Below are positions 22,097-52,332 of a stretch of DNA of 64,000 bases, in pieces. Location: the NCBI RefSeq assembly GCF_007748195.1, contig NZ_CP037920.1, positions 5,485,800 to 5,549,799 on the forward strand. Reading direction: 5' to 3'. The notes under the pieces were generated by a model, which saw nothing but the letters and a program-made list of their open reading frames with translations, did not search any database and had not been told where the DNA came from. Numbering within the stretch: position 1 is the first letter of the stretch; each line of letters begins with the position of its first letter. Both the position numbers and the translations under genes were made by a program. This DNA is from Gimesia aquarii. GTDB lineage: Bacteria; Planctomycetota; Planctomycetia; Planctomycetales; Planctomycetaceae.

Positions 22097-23377
22097 GTGA
22101 CTCGTCATTCACTTATTTCCCGTCGTAGTTTTGTGAATTCCACTGCACTAGCGATGGTAAGTCCCATTGGGACTACTGCATTGCAAGCTGCCTACAGTAA
22201 CAAGAAAAACGCCAAACTAATCAAATCGATTACAAAAGAAACGATCTTTCGTAATCGTAATGGGTCTGGAACAACCTGGTTTCACCCACGCACTTGCCTG
22301 ATTCCAGGTAAAAACGGGAAAGCGACACTCTTTGCCAATTTGCAGGAGATTGGAGGCTCAGATTATTTTGGCCCTGTCCACTGGAGTGAATCCCAGGATC
22401 GAGGAATGACCTGGAGTATTCCCCAACCAATTCCAGCACTCGGACGTGATCCAGTTCAAGGACACCCGGGATTGATGGCAGGGGTCTGTGATGTGACGCC
22501 GCAGTACCATCAAAAGACAGATACCATTCTTTCCCTGGGACATGTCGTCTTCTATCGCGGACCTCGATTTGCAAGAGGCGATCAACTGGCACGCTATCCG
22601 GTGTATGCAGTGCGACAAAAAAATGGCATCTGGTCGGAACGGAAAATTCTGGAATGGGACGATCCACGCGGTTCATTTATCTATACCAATAATTGTGGGC
22701 AACGTATTGTGATGCCTAACGGCGATATCATGATGTCGTTCACATTTGGACCTGAAAAAGACCATCGCATGGTAGCCGGAGTTCGCTGTTCGTTTGATGG
22801 CTCAGAACTAAAAATCCTGGAAGTGGGGCCTCCTTTAAAAAATAATGTCGGGCGTGGCTTACTCGAACCTTCCATCACGCGGTTCCAGAATCAATTCTTC
22901 ATGACCATTCGCGCAGAGGATGGACATGGATATGTTGCCGTCAGCCCGGACGGTTTGAACTACCACAGAAAAACAGCCTGGGCCTGGGACGATGGCCAGC
23001 CAATTGGCATGTCAACGACACAACAACACTGGCTCACTCATTCCGATGAACTCTTTCTGGTCTATACGAGAAAAGATAAATCGAACAAAAATGTTATCCG
23101 TTGGCGTTCTCCATTGTGGGTCGCACGCGTTGATCCGAAAAAACTCTGTCTGATTCGGGAGTCAGAACAAGTTGTGCTGCCTCTAGTGGGTGATGGAGTC
23201 AATAAACCCAACGAGGTCGCCATCATGGGTAACTTTGATGTGACGAATCTCAGCCCCAATGAGTCTTGCGTGACTGTCGGAGAGTGGCTTCCCCGAGGTG
23301 GCTATAAGGGTGATCTCTTACTCTCAAGAATTCGCTGGAACAAACCAAACCGAAATCTACCTGATTTTGCTCTTTGA
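22097..23377 (+). CDS. Sialidase-like (BNR/Asp-box) exported protein
   Basis: A 426-residue protein that starts with GTG and has a twin-arginine-like signal (ISRRSFVNSTALAMVS). SQDRGMTWS at about residue 100 is a clear Asp-box (SxDxGxTW), the turn motif of six-bladed sialidase propellers. Other blades show in TWFHPRTCLIP and NEVAIMGNFD. It resembles the exo-alpha-sialidase-like family common in planctomycetes; real sialidase activity cannot be inferred because the Arg triad was not traced. The neighbours give no pathway. A ribosome site is weak (AGAAAG). Confidence 0.75.
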   Translation: MTRHSLISRRSFVNSTALAMVSPIGTTALQAAYSNKKNAKLIKSITKETIFRNRNGSGTTWFHPRTCLIPGKNGKATLFANLQEIGGSDYFGPVHWSESQDRGMTWSIPQPIPALGRDPVQGHPGLMAGVCDVTPQYHQKTDTILSLGHVVFYRGPRFARGDQLARYPVYAVRQKNGIWSERKILEWDDPRGSFIYTNNCGQRIVMPNGDIMMSFTFGPEKDHRMVAGVRCSFDGSELKILEVGPPLKNNVGRGLLEPSITRFQNQFFMTIRAEDGHGYVAVSPDGLNYHRKTAWAWDDGQPIGMSTTQQHWLTHSDELFLVYTRKDKSNKNVIRWRSPLWVARVDPKKLCLIRESEQVVLPLVGDGVNKPNEVAIMGNFDVTNLSPNESCVTVGEWLPRGGYKGDLLLSRIRWNKPNRNLPDFAL

Positions 23378-23428: not shown

Positions 23429-23458
23429 AGAGAGCCATCAGCTTACTGATGGCTCTCT
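23429..23458 (-). terminator. Rho-independent terminator of the CsrA-REC gene
   Basis: A perfect 13-base stem, AGAGAGCCATCAG and CTGATGGCTCTCT, with a 4-base loop. On the minus strand it is followed by TTTTTT. It lies about 110 bases past the stop of the minus-strand CsrA-response-regulator gene and 50 bases past the convergent sialidase-like stop. Confidence 0.85.
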
Positions 23459-23566: not shown

Positions 23567-24322
23567 TTAAGTGCGACAGGAAACTGCCATCGCGTCAATA
23601 AGTTTTCCTGGATTCAAGGGCTTCATAAACCAGGCATTGACACCTTCATTTTCTGATTGAGCGAAACAATCCTCAGGAGCTGTTCCACTTATTGCAAATA
23701 TTTTCACTTGATTATAAGCTTCGTTCTTTCGGATATGTCTAATCGCTGTCGGTCCATCACAGCGAGGCATTCGCATATCAAAAAGAATGATCGAAGGAAG
23801 CGGGTTATTCTCCAGATGATCAATAGCATCAACACCATCTTTACTTGTAGCGACTTGATAGCCATGCATCTCGAGTAAGCCTGCCAGCATCTCGCGCTCG
23901 TTCTCCTGATCCTCAACTAACAGAATACTATTTGGCTTCTTTTCTAAATGTTTGGCATCCTCAGAAGAAATCTGATTTTGTTCGAGAATATTTTCCAGTA
24001 ACTCGACTTGTCTTTTAAAGACTTTTTCAGCTTCCTTATGAAAGCCAGCTGCCACTTGTTCTTTATAAAGATGCGTAGCAATACTCAAAGAATTTAATTG
24101 ATTTCGGAGTTTGTGTCGCAGTTCAGGAGGGACTTGAACAATCTGGTGCTCTTTTGAGTCATGAGATATTGCTTCAGGTAATTCGCCTCGGACAATTTTG
24201 AATTCGACGGGAGCATCAAATCCGACTCTTACAGTAGAGCCTCTCACACCAAGAATCTTTACCGTAATACCAAGATCGGGGAAGCTGACGTTTTGGTCCT
24301 GCTTACGACTGAGAATAAGCAT
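23567..24322 (-). CDS. CsrA-response regulator fusion protein
   Basis: A 251-residue protein with three parts. Residues 1-55 are a complete CsrA/RsmA-like RNA-binding domain: MLILSRKQDQ at the start, ILGVRGSTVRVGFDAP in the middle and VRGELPEAI at the end, with the RNA-contacting Arg (45 here, equal to Arg44 of E. coli CsrA) kept. Residues about 65-120 are helical with RHKLRNQLNSLS, which resembles a histidine-kinase H-box. Residues about 130-250 are a receiver domain (SILLVEDQ, FDMRMPRCDG with the phosphoacceptor Asp, and FMKPL). ATG 24322 follows AAGGAAATT; the longer frame to 24364 is unlikely. It lies 189 bases downstream of the hybrid kinase gene on the same strand, so phosphorylation by that kinase is a reasonable inference. 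Confidence 0.88.
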   Translation of the reverse strand: MLILSRKQDQNVSFPDLGITVKILGVRGSTVRVGFDAPVEFKIVRGELPEAISHDSKEHQIVQVPPELRHKLRNQLNSLSIATHLYKEQVAAGFHKEAEKVFKRQVELLENILEQNQISSEDAKHLEKKPNSILLVEDQENEREMLAGLLEMHGYQVATSKDGVDAIDHLENNPLPSIILFDMRMPRCDGPTAIRHIRKNEAYNQVKIFAISGTAPEDCFAQSENEGVNAWFMKPLNPGKLIDAMAVSCRT

Positions 24323-24511
24323 GGGAATTTCCTTCCGTGGAATAACTGGCTTTCGATGTTCCATCCATGGAATTCGAGAACAATCATGTTAATTCACTAA
24401 GCATCCCTGCTCTGTTTTAGTCATACCTGCTGGTGTCGATCAATGCGATCTAAATTTTTAACGAAATATATTTCACCTGTCAACCATTTTCTTGTAAATG
24501 AGTTATATACC

Positions 24512-27500
24512 TTACTTTTCACTGAGATTTGTTTGTATATTTGCTCTTTGATGGATGATTTGAACAATTAATTCACTGGGATCTATTGGTTTCACAAGAT
24601 GTGTGTCAAATCCTGCTGACAAAGCGGCTTCCTGATCAGATTGACGCCCATAACCGGTAAGCGCAATAAGTACCGGAGGTAATTCCGTGTTTTGTTTCCG
24701 AATTTCTCTGGCAAGTTGGTATCCATCCATTCTGGGAAGCCCAATATCAATAACAGCAACATCAGGCTTTTTCACTTTATAAAGTTCTAATCCTGACAAT
24801 CCATCACCGGCAACCGATACTTCAAATCCTTTTATCTGAAGTGTTTCCGCCAACATATTTCGCGCGTCAAAATTATCTTCAACAAGAAGTATCTTACATC
24901 CTTCAAAGCTTAGATCTGGTTCATGCTTCAACGTCTTGGGAGTCTTATCCGTCATCGGTAAAATGATTCTAAAGGTACTGCCCTTCCCGACTCCATCACT
25001 TTCAACTTGAATATCGCCACCATGGGTCGTCACGATGCTTCGGGCGAGCGATAAACCAACTCCCAGACCCCCAGCAGATCGGGCTAAAGTGGAATCAGAT
25101 TGAACAAATAATTCAAAAATACTTGCCAAGAGTTCGCTTGGAATCCCGTCACCATTATCTTGCACTGTAATACAGACTTGATGCTCATGATAATCAATAC
25201 TGTACCAGATATCGTTACCCTCAGGCGTATACTTCGACGCGTTGTTGAGTAAATTGACTTGGGCCTGTTTGATTCGAATCGGATCAGCATAGATATAAAT
25301 GGGACCATCACAGATCATCATATGTAACGTCTGCGATTTTTCACCAATCTGATAATTGACTGATTCAAGCACTTCCTGTGCAAGAGCAATTACATCGACC
25401 ACTTCCAGCCGAAATTCGATTTTCCCCTGCCCAAATCGTGCGATATCTAATAAGTCATCTAATAAACGAGCCATGTGTCTTGTCTGTCGCTCAATAATTT
25501 GAGGAGCGTCTGTTTTTATTTCTCCGGAAGCTTGATAATCCAGGTACGTCTTATCCTGAATCAGGCTAATGGCATTGAGTACTGCTCCCATCGGATTACG
25601 GAGTTCGTGTGACAGCATCGCCAGGAAATTGTCACGTTTTAATATTTCTTCCACCTTTTGCATTTCTGCACACTTGCGGTCATGAATATCGCCTACGGAC
25701 CCCGTCATGCGTACCGGTTTACCTGAAACATCATGATCGACAATCGCACGATGCCGGAACCAGCGGTACCCATCAGTTTTGTGCAACATGCGATATTCAA
25801 AATCGCGATGCAATTCAACATAACAACTATCGCTTCCAGGCACACTTGTTTCCTGTACCCGTTCACGATCATCAGGATGTATTAAATTCAGCCACTCAGA
25901 ATGTAAAGCAGGAAACTCATCTGGTTTGTAACCTAATAAAGTATAACAATTAGGGGACCACCACATCTCATCATTTCCTACGTTGGTCCAGTCCCAGGTA
26001 CCATCTCTGTTAGCTGCAATGGCTCTCGAAAAACGCTCCTGCTCTCTTTGAATGGATTCTTCCGCTTCAACAAGAGAACTGATATCAATCAAGGTCAGTA
26101 CAATTCCCGGTATTTCATCACCGGGAACATACTCAGCCGACTTGTAGGGAAGTACTCGCATATAAAAATGTACGTTTTGCTTGCTCAGCACTTTTTCTTC
26201 ATAAGTTTCTCCTTTATCCAATACATTCTGGATCTTAGAAACTAAATCGTCGCAAATAATATTGTGAGTAAAAGCACTAATTTTTCTGCCTACATCAGTG
26301 GAAATAAAATTAAACACCTGTGCCATCCTAGGTGTAAATTTTCGGATCGATAGTGTATCGTCGAGAAAGAGCGTGTGAACCTCAGTGCTGACCAGGAGGT
26401 TATTCATATCATCGGTCAGTTCTGTTAATTCTGCGATTTTATTTTGATATTCTGCATTGACGGTATAGAGCTCTTCATTGACAGAATGTAACTCCTCATT
26501 AGTACTCTGTAACTCTTCATTTGAGGCAACCATCTCTTCATTAGTGGCCTGCAATTCTTCATTGCTGGTTTCCAGCTCTTCAATCGTGGCTTGTAAGTTT
26601 TCCTTGGTATATCGAACTTCCTGTTCCAAATCCAAAATTCGGTTTCTCGTCACTTCCTCAACATCGAGATAATCGGATCCCTGCTTTTCTTGTTCAGGAG
26701 ACACGTCTATTTCTTCAAATTGAACTAAATAATTAGGATTAGGTGACTCGTCTTCCATTAAAGAAATTTGAATATTGAGTTGCGTCTCTCCTTCTGATGT
26801 TCTGGCAAGTACATTGTTGTATCGAATTGCCTTTCGCTTTTGAGAGACTCGATGCAAGCCCCCCGCCAATGCCAGCCTTAAATCATCATCGATCATTTCA
26901 AGTAAATTAGTTGATAAGCGACCATCATTATGAACCAGATACTTTCCCGCTCCAGCAAACAGCTGAAGAACATTCCAATGTTCATTCACCAGCACACTGG
27001 TAGGCATAAATCGCTCTAGCAAATTGTCATAGGTTGCAATCAAATCTTTCCCAAAAGAATCCGACTTCTTTCTTGATCCCATTCGAGCTGGTGCGTTCAA
27101 TCGCTCTCGCTCGGTATTAATGGGATCCCGTAAATAGGCAGGAAGTTTGATATCACGTCGCTTTTTGAAGAATCGCCAACGTTCATGAAGTGTTTCAAAC
27201 TCTTCAGCAAGCTCGCCCGGACTTTCACTCGAACCGAGAAAAAGGATTCCTTCAGTTTTTAATCCAAAGTGAAATAACGATAACACTTTTTTCTGGGCCA
27301 TCGTGCGAAGATAAATTAATAAATTTCGACATGAAATCATGTCCAACCGAGTAAAGGGCGCATCTTTAACCAGGTTGTGCTGCGCGAAAACAATCATTTT
27401 GCGGATCTCAGAAGAAATTTGATATCCATCTTCCGTCTTTATAAAGTGACGATCTCGTATGGATTGTTCCATTTCTCCCAGACTCGTTTCGGGATAAATT

Positions 27501-28612
27501 CCCAGATGAGCTACATCTATGGATGCTTGATGAACATCAGTAGCAAATATTTTGACATTGATATTCCTATTTGTTTCACGCAAGTATTCATTAATCAAAA
27601 TCGCAATGGAATAAACTTCTTCTCCGGTTCCGCATCCCGCCACCCAGGCCCGGAATTCCTCGAACTTTTTTTTCTCTGGTAATAACTGGGGAATAATTTC
27701 GGTCTTTAAAACTTTGAATGCTTCACGATCACGGAAGAAGCGAGTGACACCTATTAATAAATCTTTATAGAGTTGATCGACCTCTGCAGGCTCTTTTTCA
27801 AGCCGATCGACATATTCGTCAATATTACCATGGTGATTTAATTGAATTCGACGTTCAATTCGACGTCCAATCGTGGAAGGCTTGTAATGATTGAAATCAA
27901 TGCGGTGACGCTCCTGCAACAGCCGAAAAACATGTTCAATGCTTGATTCATCAAGTGGTGGCTGGTCCAATTCTGTCTGATGCAGGTGATTAATATAACG
28001 TTCCAGAACATCAGAAATTTTTTCCGGTGGTACAATAACATCAACAATTCCCGTATCGATCGCGCTTTTAGGCATGCCGTCAAACTTAGAAGTTTGTGGA
28101 GACTGTGCGACGACCAGTCCACCTGCTTCATGAATATCACGAATCCCTCTTGAACCATCACTGCCCGTTCCGGATAAAATGACGGCGATACTTCTTCGAC
28201 CTACGTCCTGAGCCAATGTACGCAGGAAATGATCGATGGGTAGTGATAAGGATTGTGACGTATCTTTTTCTGTTAAAAGTAATTTTCCATCAGAAATGAC
28301 CATGTCCTGTTTCGGAGGAATCAGATAAAGAGAATTGGGTTCCACCACCATCCCATCTACAACTCGGTTAATGCGCATTTTGGTGTGACGCGCCATTAGC
28401 TCATCCATCAGACTTTTAAAATCCGGGGAGAGATGTTGTACAATGACAAATGCCATACCAGCGTCGTCAGGCATCATCTTAAACATCAGCTCTAGTGCCT
28501 CAAGCCCACCTGCAGAGGCACCAACACCGACAATGTGAAACTCATCTGCTGGTTCTTCATTTTGCTGACTGCTTTGAACTTTCAGGCTGCTCTTTTGACC
28601 AGAGTTTGTCAT
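24512..28612 (-). CDS. CheB-CheR-PAS hybrid histidine kinase with receiver domain
   Basis: A 1366-residue cytoplasmic signalling protein. In order: CheB methylesterase (about 26-215; GVGASAGG Ser, VQHLSPDF His, [10 protein letters not shown] Asp, all present); CheR methyltransferase (about 235-500; [45 protein letters not shown]); a long Glu/Asn-rich coiled coil (about 655-735; [15 protein letters not shown]); two PAS-like regions (about 735-985); HisKA with [11 protein letters not shown] (His near 1001); HATPase ([24 protein letters not shown]); and a terminal receiver ([23 protein letters not shown]). Such proteins couple chemotaxis-type methylation to phosphotransfer. No chemoreceptor is nearby. 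The CsrA-receiver gene follows it and is a likely partner. Confidence 0.92.
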
Positions 28613-28983: not shown

Positions 28984-30309
28984 TTAGCTCGTGAAATCTT
29001 CCCATCCCTTACGGAACTTGGAATAAAGATACTGCCTGGCATTCTCATTTCCCCCAGCTGTCAAAGTGGCTGCATCCCAGTCGAAGCCTCCTCCCGCACG
29101 ATAAGCTGTGTTTCCCAACAAGACGGTTTCAGACAAAGGACCGGAATAGTCAAAATTACAAGTCGCAGGTGTGCCACCTTTACAGGCGTCAATCCATTCC
29201 AGATGAAAACCGGGTGAATCCGGAATGGACTGTTCAGGTGCTTTGAATCCTTCAAAAGTTTTTTCAGGGAATAATTTGTGAGAATTGAACCCCGTCAACA
29301 GCATCCCTTTCGAACCGATAAAGAGTGTATTCGCACCTTTCAGACTAATTCCTTTTTCTTTCAGAATAGCAGGGCCTTTTTTTGACTGAGACCAGTGAAG
29401 TTCAAGCGCAGGCCGCTTGCTGTTCGCAGGGAAAGCAAAACTGGTCTGCATTTTTGTAGGGGTTCGTTCAGCATCGACCTCTGGCCCCGAGGCTTCAACG
29501 CGTGTGGGGTATTTCAGGTCGAGTGCCCAAAAAGGGATGTCCAGAATATGACAGCCCCAGTTTCCCGTTTCTCCTGTACCGTAATCCCACCAGAATCGCC
29601 AATTGTATGGCGCTAACGTTCCCTGCCCTTTAGCATTCAAAGCGTAAGGACGAAATTTAGCAGGACCGATCCACAAATCCCAATCGAGAGTTTCCGGAGG
29701 CGAAACAGTTTTCACAGGAAGTGCAGGCATCCCTCGGCTACTGCTCACCCAGCTATAAACTTCATTCACATCGCCTATCGCACCCGATTGTACGAGTTCG
29801 ACAACACGATGCATATTTTTATAAGCGTGCCGCTGCATACCCAGTTGTGTTGCCAGTTTCTTTTTGGCAGCTAGTTTGGTCATTTCGCGTACTTCCCAAA
29901 CTGAGTGAGCCATAGGTTTTTCGCAGTAGAGATGTTTGCCCATCGTCATCGCCATCATAGAAGGATGGAAATGCGTATGGTCGGGAGTACTTACCACAAC
30001 AGCATCGATCTGATTTTCCATCGCGTCAAGCATACGACGGAAATCGGCAAACTTCCTCGCACTCGAATAACGTTCATAGGCTTTACCCGCTCGTTTCTCA
30101 TCGACATCACAGAGGGCGACAATATTTTCTGTTTTGCCAACAGCGTTTAAATTCGCAGCACCACGACCACCGATGCCAATCACAGCCACGTTTAGTTTTT
30201 CATTCGCCACTGCCCGCGTCGGTCTGACAGACGTTCCCAACCAGAGACCGGCTCCGATAGCAGCTGTAGTCTGCAGGGCTTTACGACGGGTAATTTGTTG
30301 GTCGGTCAT
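28984..30309 (-). CDS. Gfo/Idh/MocA oxidoreductase, Tat-exported
   Basis: A 441-residue protein with a twin-arginine signal (ITRRKALQTTAAIGAG) and Rossmann domain (NVAVIGIGGRGAANLN, VDAVVVSTPDHTH). The family EKP motif appears in HLYCEKPMAHSVWE, and GETGNWGCHILDIPFWALDL is the C-terminal active-site region. It is the second exported member of the family in this window and is probably another sugar-processing enzyme. ATG 30309 follows CGAGGAGAACC. It is separated by 243 bases from the proton ATPase upstream. Confidence 0.9.
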   Translation of the reverse strand: MTDQQITRRKALQTTAAIGAGLWLGTSVRPTRAVANEKLNVAVIGIGGRGAANLNAVGKTENIVALCDVDEKRAGKAYERYSSARKFADFRRMLDAMENQIDAVVVSTPDHTHFHPSMMAMTMGKHLYCEKPMAHSVWEVREMTKLAAKKKLATQLGMQRHAYKNMHRVVELVQSGAIGDVNEVYSWVSSSRGMPALPVKTVSPPETLDWDLWIGPAKFRPYALNAKGQGTLAPYNWRFWWDYGTGETGNWGCHILDIPFWALDLKYPTRVEASGPEVDAERTPTKMQTSFAFPANSKRPALELHWSQSKKGPAILKEKGISLKGANTLFIGSKGMLLTGFNSHKLFPEKTFEGFKAPEQSIPDSPGFHLEWIDACKGGTPATCNFDYSGPLSETVLLGNTAYRAGGGFDWDAATLTAGGNENARQYLYSKFRKGWEDFTS

Positions 30310-52258: not shown

Positions 52259-52332
52259 TAGGGCCGGCAGGACTCGAACCTGCAACCAACAAATTATGAG
52301 TTTGCTGCTCTAACCGATTGAGCTACGGCCCC
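52259..52332 (-). tRNA. tRNA with CAU anticodon (Met or Ile2)
   Basis: A full 74-base cloverleaf on the minus strand: acceptor GGGGCCG with CGGCCCT (the first pair is G-U), D-arm GCTC/GAGC, anticodon stem GCAAA/TTTGT with loop CTCATAA (CAU), five-base variable loop, T-arm GCAGG-TTCGAGT-CCTGC, discriminator A. The 3' CCA is not encoded. A CAU anticodon may belong to elongator Met or to Ile2, whose C34 is modified to lysidine; sequence alone does not settle this. A T-rich tail follows. Confidence 0.92.

Follow-up and report, generated by a model that had tools for sequence, protein, structure and literature searches.

Histidine phosphotransferases can be built like the dimerisation and histidine-phosphotransfer (DHp) domain of histidine kinases, as in Spo0B. 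In the accounts of the CckA-ChpT-CtrA pathway that we draw on, ChpT has a DHp-type hairpin with a phosphorylatable histidine and no working kinase, and carries phosphate from the receiver of a hybrid kinase to a terminal receiver (PMC3433190, PMC9981736). RNA-binding output under signal control is described for the ANTAR regulators AmiR, NasR, EutV and PdtaR, several of which have a receiver (PMC3369931, PMC12471899), and two-component signalling that ends in CsrA activity is described for BarA-UvrY and GacS-GacA (PMC10277598). Here we describe a gene pair in Gimesia aquarii that appears to bring features of these systems together. It lies in a stretch of 64,000 nucleotides (NCBI RefSeq assembly GCF_007748195.1, contig NZ_CP037920.1, positions 5,485,800 to 5,549,799 of the forward strand), which was analysed whole and which we call the window. 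One gene encodes a 251-residue protein, here called the fusion, that joins a CsrA domain, a helical hairpin with a conserved histidine, and a receiver, while the gene upstream of it encodes a 1366-residue hybrid histidine kinase. We think it marginally probable that the pair forms a His-Asp-His-Asp phosphorelay in which the last two steps and the RNA-binding output lie on one chain.

The fusion resembles ChpT in that its hairpin seems to be of the DHp type with a histidine, and in the proposed relay it would likewise work with a receiver-bearing donor. However, ChpT stands alone as a protein and carries a degenerate ATPase-like domain, whereas the hairpin of the fusion has no such domain and is joined to a terminal receiver and an RNA-binding output. 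ANTAR proteins act by antitermination, whereas the output of the fusion is a CsrA domain located N-terminal to the receiver, and no ANTAR match was found in the fusion at a Pfam E-value of 1 or below. In BarA-UvrY and GacS-GacA the link to CsrA is indirect, running through transcription of CsrB and CsrC, RNAs that sequester free CsrA, whereas the fusion has its receiver on the CsrA chain itself. Free CsrA and RsmA share with the fusion the same domain and its RNA-contact residues (L4, R6 and R44 in Escherichia coli CsrA) but have no receiver. Because free CsrA has no receiver, a 2025 review (PMC12471899) looks mistaken where, in section 4 and its table, it places the E. coli protein among the orphan response regulators and puts its RNA-binding domain at the C-terminus; the label of response regulator would suit the fusions described here. 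Among the open-access papers listed by our searches none dealt with CsrA-receiver fusions, and an earlier mention in Galperin's two censuses of response-regulator outputs is possible. DHp-like phosphotransferases, ANTAR response regulators, and the regulation of CsrA by two-component systems by way of small RNAs are each known already; in the literature searched we saw no account of them united on one chain. CsrA is normally under the control of decoy RNAs or FliW-like proteins. If a CsrA domain answered to a receiver on its own chain, sensing would be coupled to mRNA control in a single step that bypasses transcription, and the relay, if true, would end in control of messenger RNA instead of DNA.

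Pfam matches CsrA at residues 1-52 of the fusion (E 8e-14, 51.8 bits against a cut-off of 27) and Response_reg at residues 133-245 (E 1.6e-19). Relatives occur in 39 of the 170 genomes of the window's family, at 41 places (E ≤ 1e-20), and key residues are kept across a 41-row alignment of the window's protein with 40 relatives, so that the fusion is not a chance open frame. In this alignment R6 is present in 40 rows and R45, E47, D138, D182, and K234 in all 41, with the hairpin positions H70, N74, L76, and G93 kept in 40, 40, 41, and 39 rows, respectively. The start at 24322 is closely preceded by GGAAGGA, and 39 of the 40 relatives align from its residue 1, with ATG in all 39; the 40th is cut by the end of its contig. 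This start is better than the one 14 codons further upstream that the list of open reading frames (ORFs) gives, which would make a protein of 265 residues. The initial annotation had described the protein as a CsrA domain, a helical part with an H-box-like motif, and a receiver, and the upstream gene as encoding a CheB-CheR-PAS-kinase-receiver protein of 1366 residues. Both descriptions hold, with CsrA and Response_reg above their Pfam cut-offs in the fusion, its start shared by 39 relatives, and each domain of the kinase (CheB, CheR_N, CheR, two PAS folds, HisKA, HATPase_c, and Response_reg) above cut-off as well.

For comparison across loci we used a set of 77 distinct fusions (78 rows minus L098, a duplicate of L047), which includes a 97% relative of the window's fusion (L043) and leaves the window's own pair outside. 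Domains were called with profiles built from these loci, with a Pfam spot-check on eight proteins. His70 is kept in 64 of the 77, which we refer to as His-plus fusions. In these proteins D138, D182, and K234 are each present in 64 of 64, as is a Ser or Thr at position 212, so that by its sequence the receiver is canonical, with the phosphorylation site kept. In their CsrA part R6 and R45, which we take to be the RNA-binding arginines of the domain, are each kept in 63 of 64 proteins, and L4 in 55 of 64.

Between CsrA and the receiver, AlphaFold2 predicts two helices at residues 66-91 and 95-125, with a predicted local distance difference test (pLDDT) score of 86 for the whole model and 95 for the bare hairpin of L043. 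His70 lies near the start of helix 1, within the motif H-x-L-R-N-x-L-N. Alignment of the 64 His-plus hairpins with 89 HisKA rows from kinases in these loci by hhalign gave a match of 91.7% (E 1e-7) that superposes the hairpin His on the HisKA His and the Asn at position +4 on Asn, while helical controls from the same kinases gave 0.06% (coil) and 0.03% (CheR_N). In the same run the hairpins of fusions that have no His70, which are true relatives, gave 91.6%. When hairpins were scanned singly (E ≤ 1), HisKA was the Pfam family matched by most (18 of 46, best E 4e-6), with TPR_19 matched by six and SPOB_a, of the Spo0B type, by two; in the window's own fusion the HisKA match is below cut-off (E 0.09) and a hint only. 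In the partner kinases, 50 of 53 H-boxes read [SA]HELRNP and three were not read by the pattern. Together, the profile comparison and the structural model indicate that the hairpin is a two-helix relative of DHp with its histidine on helix 1. No ATPase domain follows it, the receiver being the next domain, and it could be a DHp that performs phosphotransfer only. Its interpretation as a mere linker was rejected because H70, N74, L76, and G93 are near invariant amid variable residues, and that as a classical histidine phosphotransfer domain (PF01627) because there is no Pfam Hpt match at E ≤ 1. With the whole model as query, the best 50 of 1417 Foldseek matches were receivers or response regulators, over ~120 aligned columns.

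The genes near the fusions point to a kinase partner of a particular kind. We call a kinase hybrid if it ends in a receiver, and count as a neighbour a gene within 700 bp. A histidine kinase is the neighbour of 52 of the 64 His-plus fusions, and it is hybrid in 52 of 52. These adjacent hybrids comprise 33 of the CheB-CheR type and 19 shorter kinases, and the proposal that the partner is always a CheB-CheR protein was rejected on that count. In the G. aquarii genome, where there are 58 receiver matches, a downstream receiver in the same frame accompanies 13 of 36 HATPase matches (gyrase and other non-kinases included), and a receiver is therefore not the norm for short kinases. Fusion and kinase genes are found in convergent, divergent, and co-directional order. 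Separate and unlinked conservation of the two genes, the outcome that the initial annotation had set against its own proposal, is not what is seen, with the linkage kept across numerous genomes and in different gene orders. Counting L054, whose hybrid lies at 744 bp, 53 fusions have a hybrid nearby; on the best tree, many inner branches of which are weak, their partner class (CheB-CheR or short) changes 10 times, and hybrid partners therefore seem to have been taken up repeatedly. The initial annotation had also suggested checking for co-occurrence with CheB-CheR kinases; such a kinase is present in 36 of the 39 fusion genomes vs 37 of the 131 others (uncorrected for descent). CheB-CheR kinases are few: among the 22 genomes examined for them, that of G. 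aquarii has three CheB matches, one of which is in a long CheB-CheR kinase, and this is the neighbour of the fusion. Across the family there are 35 CheB-CheR kinases of at least 700 bits, of which 22 lie within 4.5 kb of a fusion.

The proposed relay rests on the identity of the domains, their conservation, the profile match between hairpin and DHp, the linkage of the genes, and the hybrid nature of the adjacent partners, and from these we infer its phosphotransfer steps, dimerisation, RNA binding, direction of effect, and targets. In this process, the hybrid kinase would autophosphorylate its DHp domain, on the histidine within SHELRNP, and pass the phosphate to the Asp of its own C-terminal receiver. 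From there it would move to His70 in the DHp-like hairpin of the fusion, which would serve as a ChpT- or Spo0B-like histidine phosphotransferase with no ATPase domain, and then to Asp182 of the fusion receiver. The CsrA fold is an obligate dimer, and both it and the hairpin, as a four-helix bundle, would dimerise the fusion. Phosphorylation of the receiver would alter binding of the CsrA dimer to GGA-containing mRNA leaders. The initial annotation had proposed phosphorylation-controlled mRNA binding as a direct link from two-component signalling to post-transcriptional control. The conserved arginines, phosphorylation site, and linkage favour the general direction of that proposal, but direct transfer from kinase to receiver fits less well than a four-step relay through His70, because 52 of 52 kinases are hybrid and the fusion has an H-box in a DHp-like hairpin. 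The two receivers also differ at position K-3, the Tyr106 site of CheY, which is Trp in 74 of 77 fusions vs His in 44 of 53 partner kinases. In output receivers, an aromatic residue at the Tyr106 site is part of the switch. A study of CckA argues that the intermediate receivers found in hybrid kinases need no such allosteric switch (PMC9981736), and the difference at K-3 is compatible with a non-switching intermediate receiver in the kinase and a switching terminal receiver in the fusion.

His70 is absent from 13 fusions. Eleven of these keep the hairpin with other residues at both position 70 and position 74, although the residues read at these positions in the most divergent proteins, foremost L235, hinge on how they are aligned; the other two have no hairpin. 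All 13 retain Asp182, and 12 of them retain Lys234. A CheB-CheR or kinase neighbour is present for 7 of the 13, and 5 of the 7 neighbours (those of L110, L112, L186, L227, and L228) are complete and have no receiver, with L112, L227, and L228 forming one clade and L186 being a short form. Both arrangements are found close together in a single genome, G477, where a His-minus fusion lies 161 bp from a 1098-residue CheB-CheR kinase without a receiver and a His-plus fusion lies 200 bp from a 1341-residue CheB-CheR kinase with one. In the tree, six His-minus fusions form one well-supported clade nested among His-plus rows. The link between loss of the histidine and a non-hybrid partner is suggestive, comprising about three events on the tree, which puts statistical significance out of reach; a Fisher p of 1e-7 for histidine against hybrid status is unusable because it ignores the relatedness of the rows and includes L113 and L119 among the non-hybrids. 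We tentatively put forward, at somewhat short of an even chance, a planctomycete class of relay with phosphotransferase, terminal receiver, and mRNA-binding effector in one polypeptide, in which the histidine is kept alongside a receiver-bearing kinase and tends to go, together with the Asn at H+4, where there is none, leaving a record of switching between four steps and two. The forms with and without the relay histidine, and with and without the kinase receiver, would offer a ready test of how phosphorelays gain and lose steps. As a separate observation, the receiver of L235:7959-8822 (G315) looks degenerate, with its acidic pair, active-site Lys, and His all replaced in the alignment.

Several observations weigh against a relay through His70. 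For 12 of the 64 His-plus fusions the 700-bp range holds no kinase. Of these, L054 has a hybrid at 744 bp, L113 a hybrid frame at 1351 bp, L058 a non-hybrid at 1234 bp, and L117 a cut-off kinase at 2648 bp, while no kinase was found for the remaining eight, six of which could be read for at least 6.7 kb on both sides. CheB-CheR proteins with no long fusion nearby are also mostly hybrid (15 of the 17 not cut off before their end), so that in the 33 CheB-CheR partners the terminal receiver is largely what is usual for their class and is weak evidence. The hairpin does not have the Pro of the H-box, and the residue that follows its His is variable and not kept acidic (E 21, A 13, D 9, Q 7, K 6, and others; n = 64); in HisKA kinases, an acidic residue after the His is used for autokinase activity and the Asn at +4 for dealing with the phospho-receiver. 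A PDB profile search with the hairpin gave 42 matches up to E 10, none of them a histidine kinase and most of them helical repeats, designed bundles, or coiled coils, and a Foldseek search with the bare hairpin gave a best E of 1.7, with HK853 entries at E 5.0 to 6.3 (best 50 of 97 matches). These PDB profile and fold searches support neither side on the identity of the hairpin. Among the His-minus fusions, the neighbour of L110 is a 392-residue short kinase of another make, and that of L119 is cut off by the end of the contig. At L113:2479-6524 a CheB-CheR-PAS frame is followed, after 131 nt, by HisKA-HATPase-REC in another reading frame, with the two frames lying between one His-minus and one His-plus fusion; this is probably a hybrid gene split by a frameshift, either genuine or introduced in assembly, and a possible counter-case. 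A separate receiver gene is present in clusters L112, L186, L227, and L228, and the phosphate route in them is therefore ambiguous. Further, the link between missing histidine and non-hybrid partner amounts to one independent pair on supported branches, or three counting weak ones. The supported pair is concordant in 200 of 200 pairings without L113 and L119, and in 177 of 200 if L113 is counted as hybrid.

The main rival of the relay is direct two-component transfer, which we consider unlikely. Here the DHp of the kinase would phosphorylate Asp182 itself, the hairpin would be a dimeriser with its His and Asn used for dephosphorylation or packing, and the kinase receiver would be a brake or sink. 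The Asn at H+4 occupies a position tied to phosphatase activity in HisKA, and the canonical receiver of the fusion suits this model. The retention of Asp182 and Lys234 in His-minus fusions suggests that a receiver without a relay histidine is still used, and at L113 the partner of a His-minus fusion may be a hybrid gene, though a broken one. However, direct transfer leaves unexplained both why 52 of 52 adjacent partners of His-plus fusions are hybrid and why His and Asn are lost jointly in the His-minus rows.

Other explanations concern the output of the relay and the meaning of the gene pair. The CsrA domain could be repurposed for dimerisation or protein binding, with a protein partner as its output and no RNA binding. 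CsrA dimers also bind proteins such as FliW, and of the 17 CsrA matches in the G. aquarii genome the 16 in small frames could handle RNA regulation; the near-complete retention of R6 and R45 in the His-plus fusions, matching RNA-binding residues of E. coli CsrA, makes this explanation improbable. It is slightly more improbable still that the neighbourhood carries no function, with the fusion serving other kinases and the gene pair being a historical accident. The 12 His-plus fusions without a kinase within 700 bp, the patchy presence of the family in 39 of 170 genomes, and the position of only 22 of the 35 strong CheB-CheR matches near a fusion speak for such an accident. Against it, the pairing persists over convergent, divergent, and co-directional gene orders and two classes of partner, and in a genome with just three CheB matches the one long CheB-CheR kinase is the neighbour of the fusion.

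The fusion family is patchy, being present in 7 of 17 genomes of the window's own genus. Absences are weak in our searches, in which the best 15, 6, and 8 candidates per genome were scored for 170, 392, and 397 genomes, respectively (six also in one further search), and many contigs are short. A phylum-wide sample gave matches in 18 of 392 genomes (E ≤ 1e-15), not all of them fusions; the sole match outside the window's class (G396) covers residues 107-244 in an 892-residue frame. A scan of contigs gave at least 80 loci, 26 of them near full length (L096-L121) and 54 chiefly receiver. The record titles of the 26 name Rhodopirellula, Isosphaera, Gemmata, Bythopirellula, Pirellulales, Planctomycetaceae, and Planctomycetota, among others, with two reading just 'bacterium'. 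All CsrA-bearing relatives among the matches listed belong to the window's class or to records labelled as planctomycete or simply 'bacterium'. Other domain combinations were also seen. G087 (L234) has the hairpin and receiver without CsrA, and short CsrA-receiver proteins without the hairpin are encoded at L186:11297-11884 (195 residues) and L226:7975-8556 (193 residues). Searching 397 genomes with the L186 short form gave one more short form (G701), one longer fusion (G732, which is L227), and partial matches in G578 and G144, the remainder being plain receivers.

One locus may be a split form of the fusion. In G041 (L183:2633-3055), a stand-alone 140-residue ORF has the motif HRLRNELY in a hairpin-like stretch, and Pfam finds nothing in it at E ≤ 0.01. 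Nearby are genes for a free CsrA, a hybrid CheB-CheR kinase, and a response regulator that ends in a helix-turn-helix (NarL type by eye). This one case suggests that the hairpin may be a module of its own. Large clusters of signalling genes were seen at L228 and L237 (G477), L112, L227, and L045, where one or two CsrA-receiver fusions accompany two or three tandem CheB-CheR proteins, kinases, and genes for receivers.

The genome of G. aquarii (G000) has 17 CsrA domain matches, of which 16 are above the family cut-off and two share one frame, and its CsrA frames other than the fusion are all of 108 residues or fewer. E. coli carries one CsrA, and by this count of matches the CsrA set of G. aquarii is strongly expanded. 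The fusion may help to find out what the many CsrA copies of planctomycetes do.

Table 1. Coordinates within the window of the fusion gene, the hybrid kinase gene, and their parts.
Feature	Position	Strand	Basis
CsrA-hairpin-REC fusion gene, 251 residues	23567..24322	-	Stop codon within range
CsrA domain, residues 1-52	24167..24322	-	Pfam PF02599, E 8e-14
DHp-like helical hairpin, residues 66-125	23948..24127	-	AlphaFold2 helices and profile match to HisKA
His70 codon (proposed phospho-acceptor, HKLRNQLN)	24113..24115	-	40/41 rows; 64/77 distinct relatives
Fusion receiver, residues 133-245 (Asp138, Asp182, Lys234)	23588..23926	-	Pfam; invariant in 41 rows
Hybrid kinase CheB-CheR-PAS-PAS-HisKA-HATPase-REC, 1366 residues	24512..28612	-	ORF and Pfam
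Kinase CheB methylesterase domain	28007..28531	-	Pfam
Kinase CheR_N and CheR methyltransferase domains	27176..27937	-	Pfam
Kinase PAS domains, two	25697..26407	-	Pfam
Kinase HisKA (DHp), H-box SHELRNP	25424..25636	-	Pfam; box from translation
Kinase HATPase_c domain	24950..25285	-	Pfam
Kinase C-terminal receiver (proposed intermediate Asp)	24560..24892	-	Pfam
Terminator-like hairpin, 13 pairs then T-run	23429..23458	-	~110 nt past fusion stop

The two genes of the pair (Table 1) are separated by an intergenic gap of 189 nt, with the kinase gene upstream and both on the minus strand. The pair seems to stand alone among its neighbours, because the nearest flanking ORFs, 22097-23377 and 28984-30309, do not resemble signalling genes when judged by eye. 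A promoter scan of the window gave 10 sites vs 12.1 expected. The terminator-like hairpin past the fusion gene has the longest stem among four such sites, where shuffled sequences lead one to expect 4.0. The sole Rfam match in the window at gathering thresholds is a tRNA gene at 52259-52332 on the minus strand.

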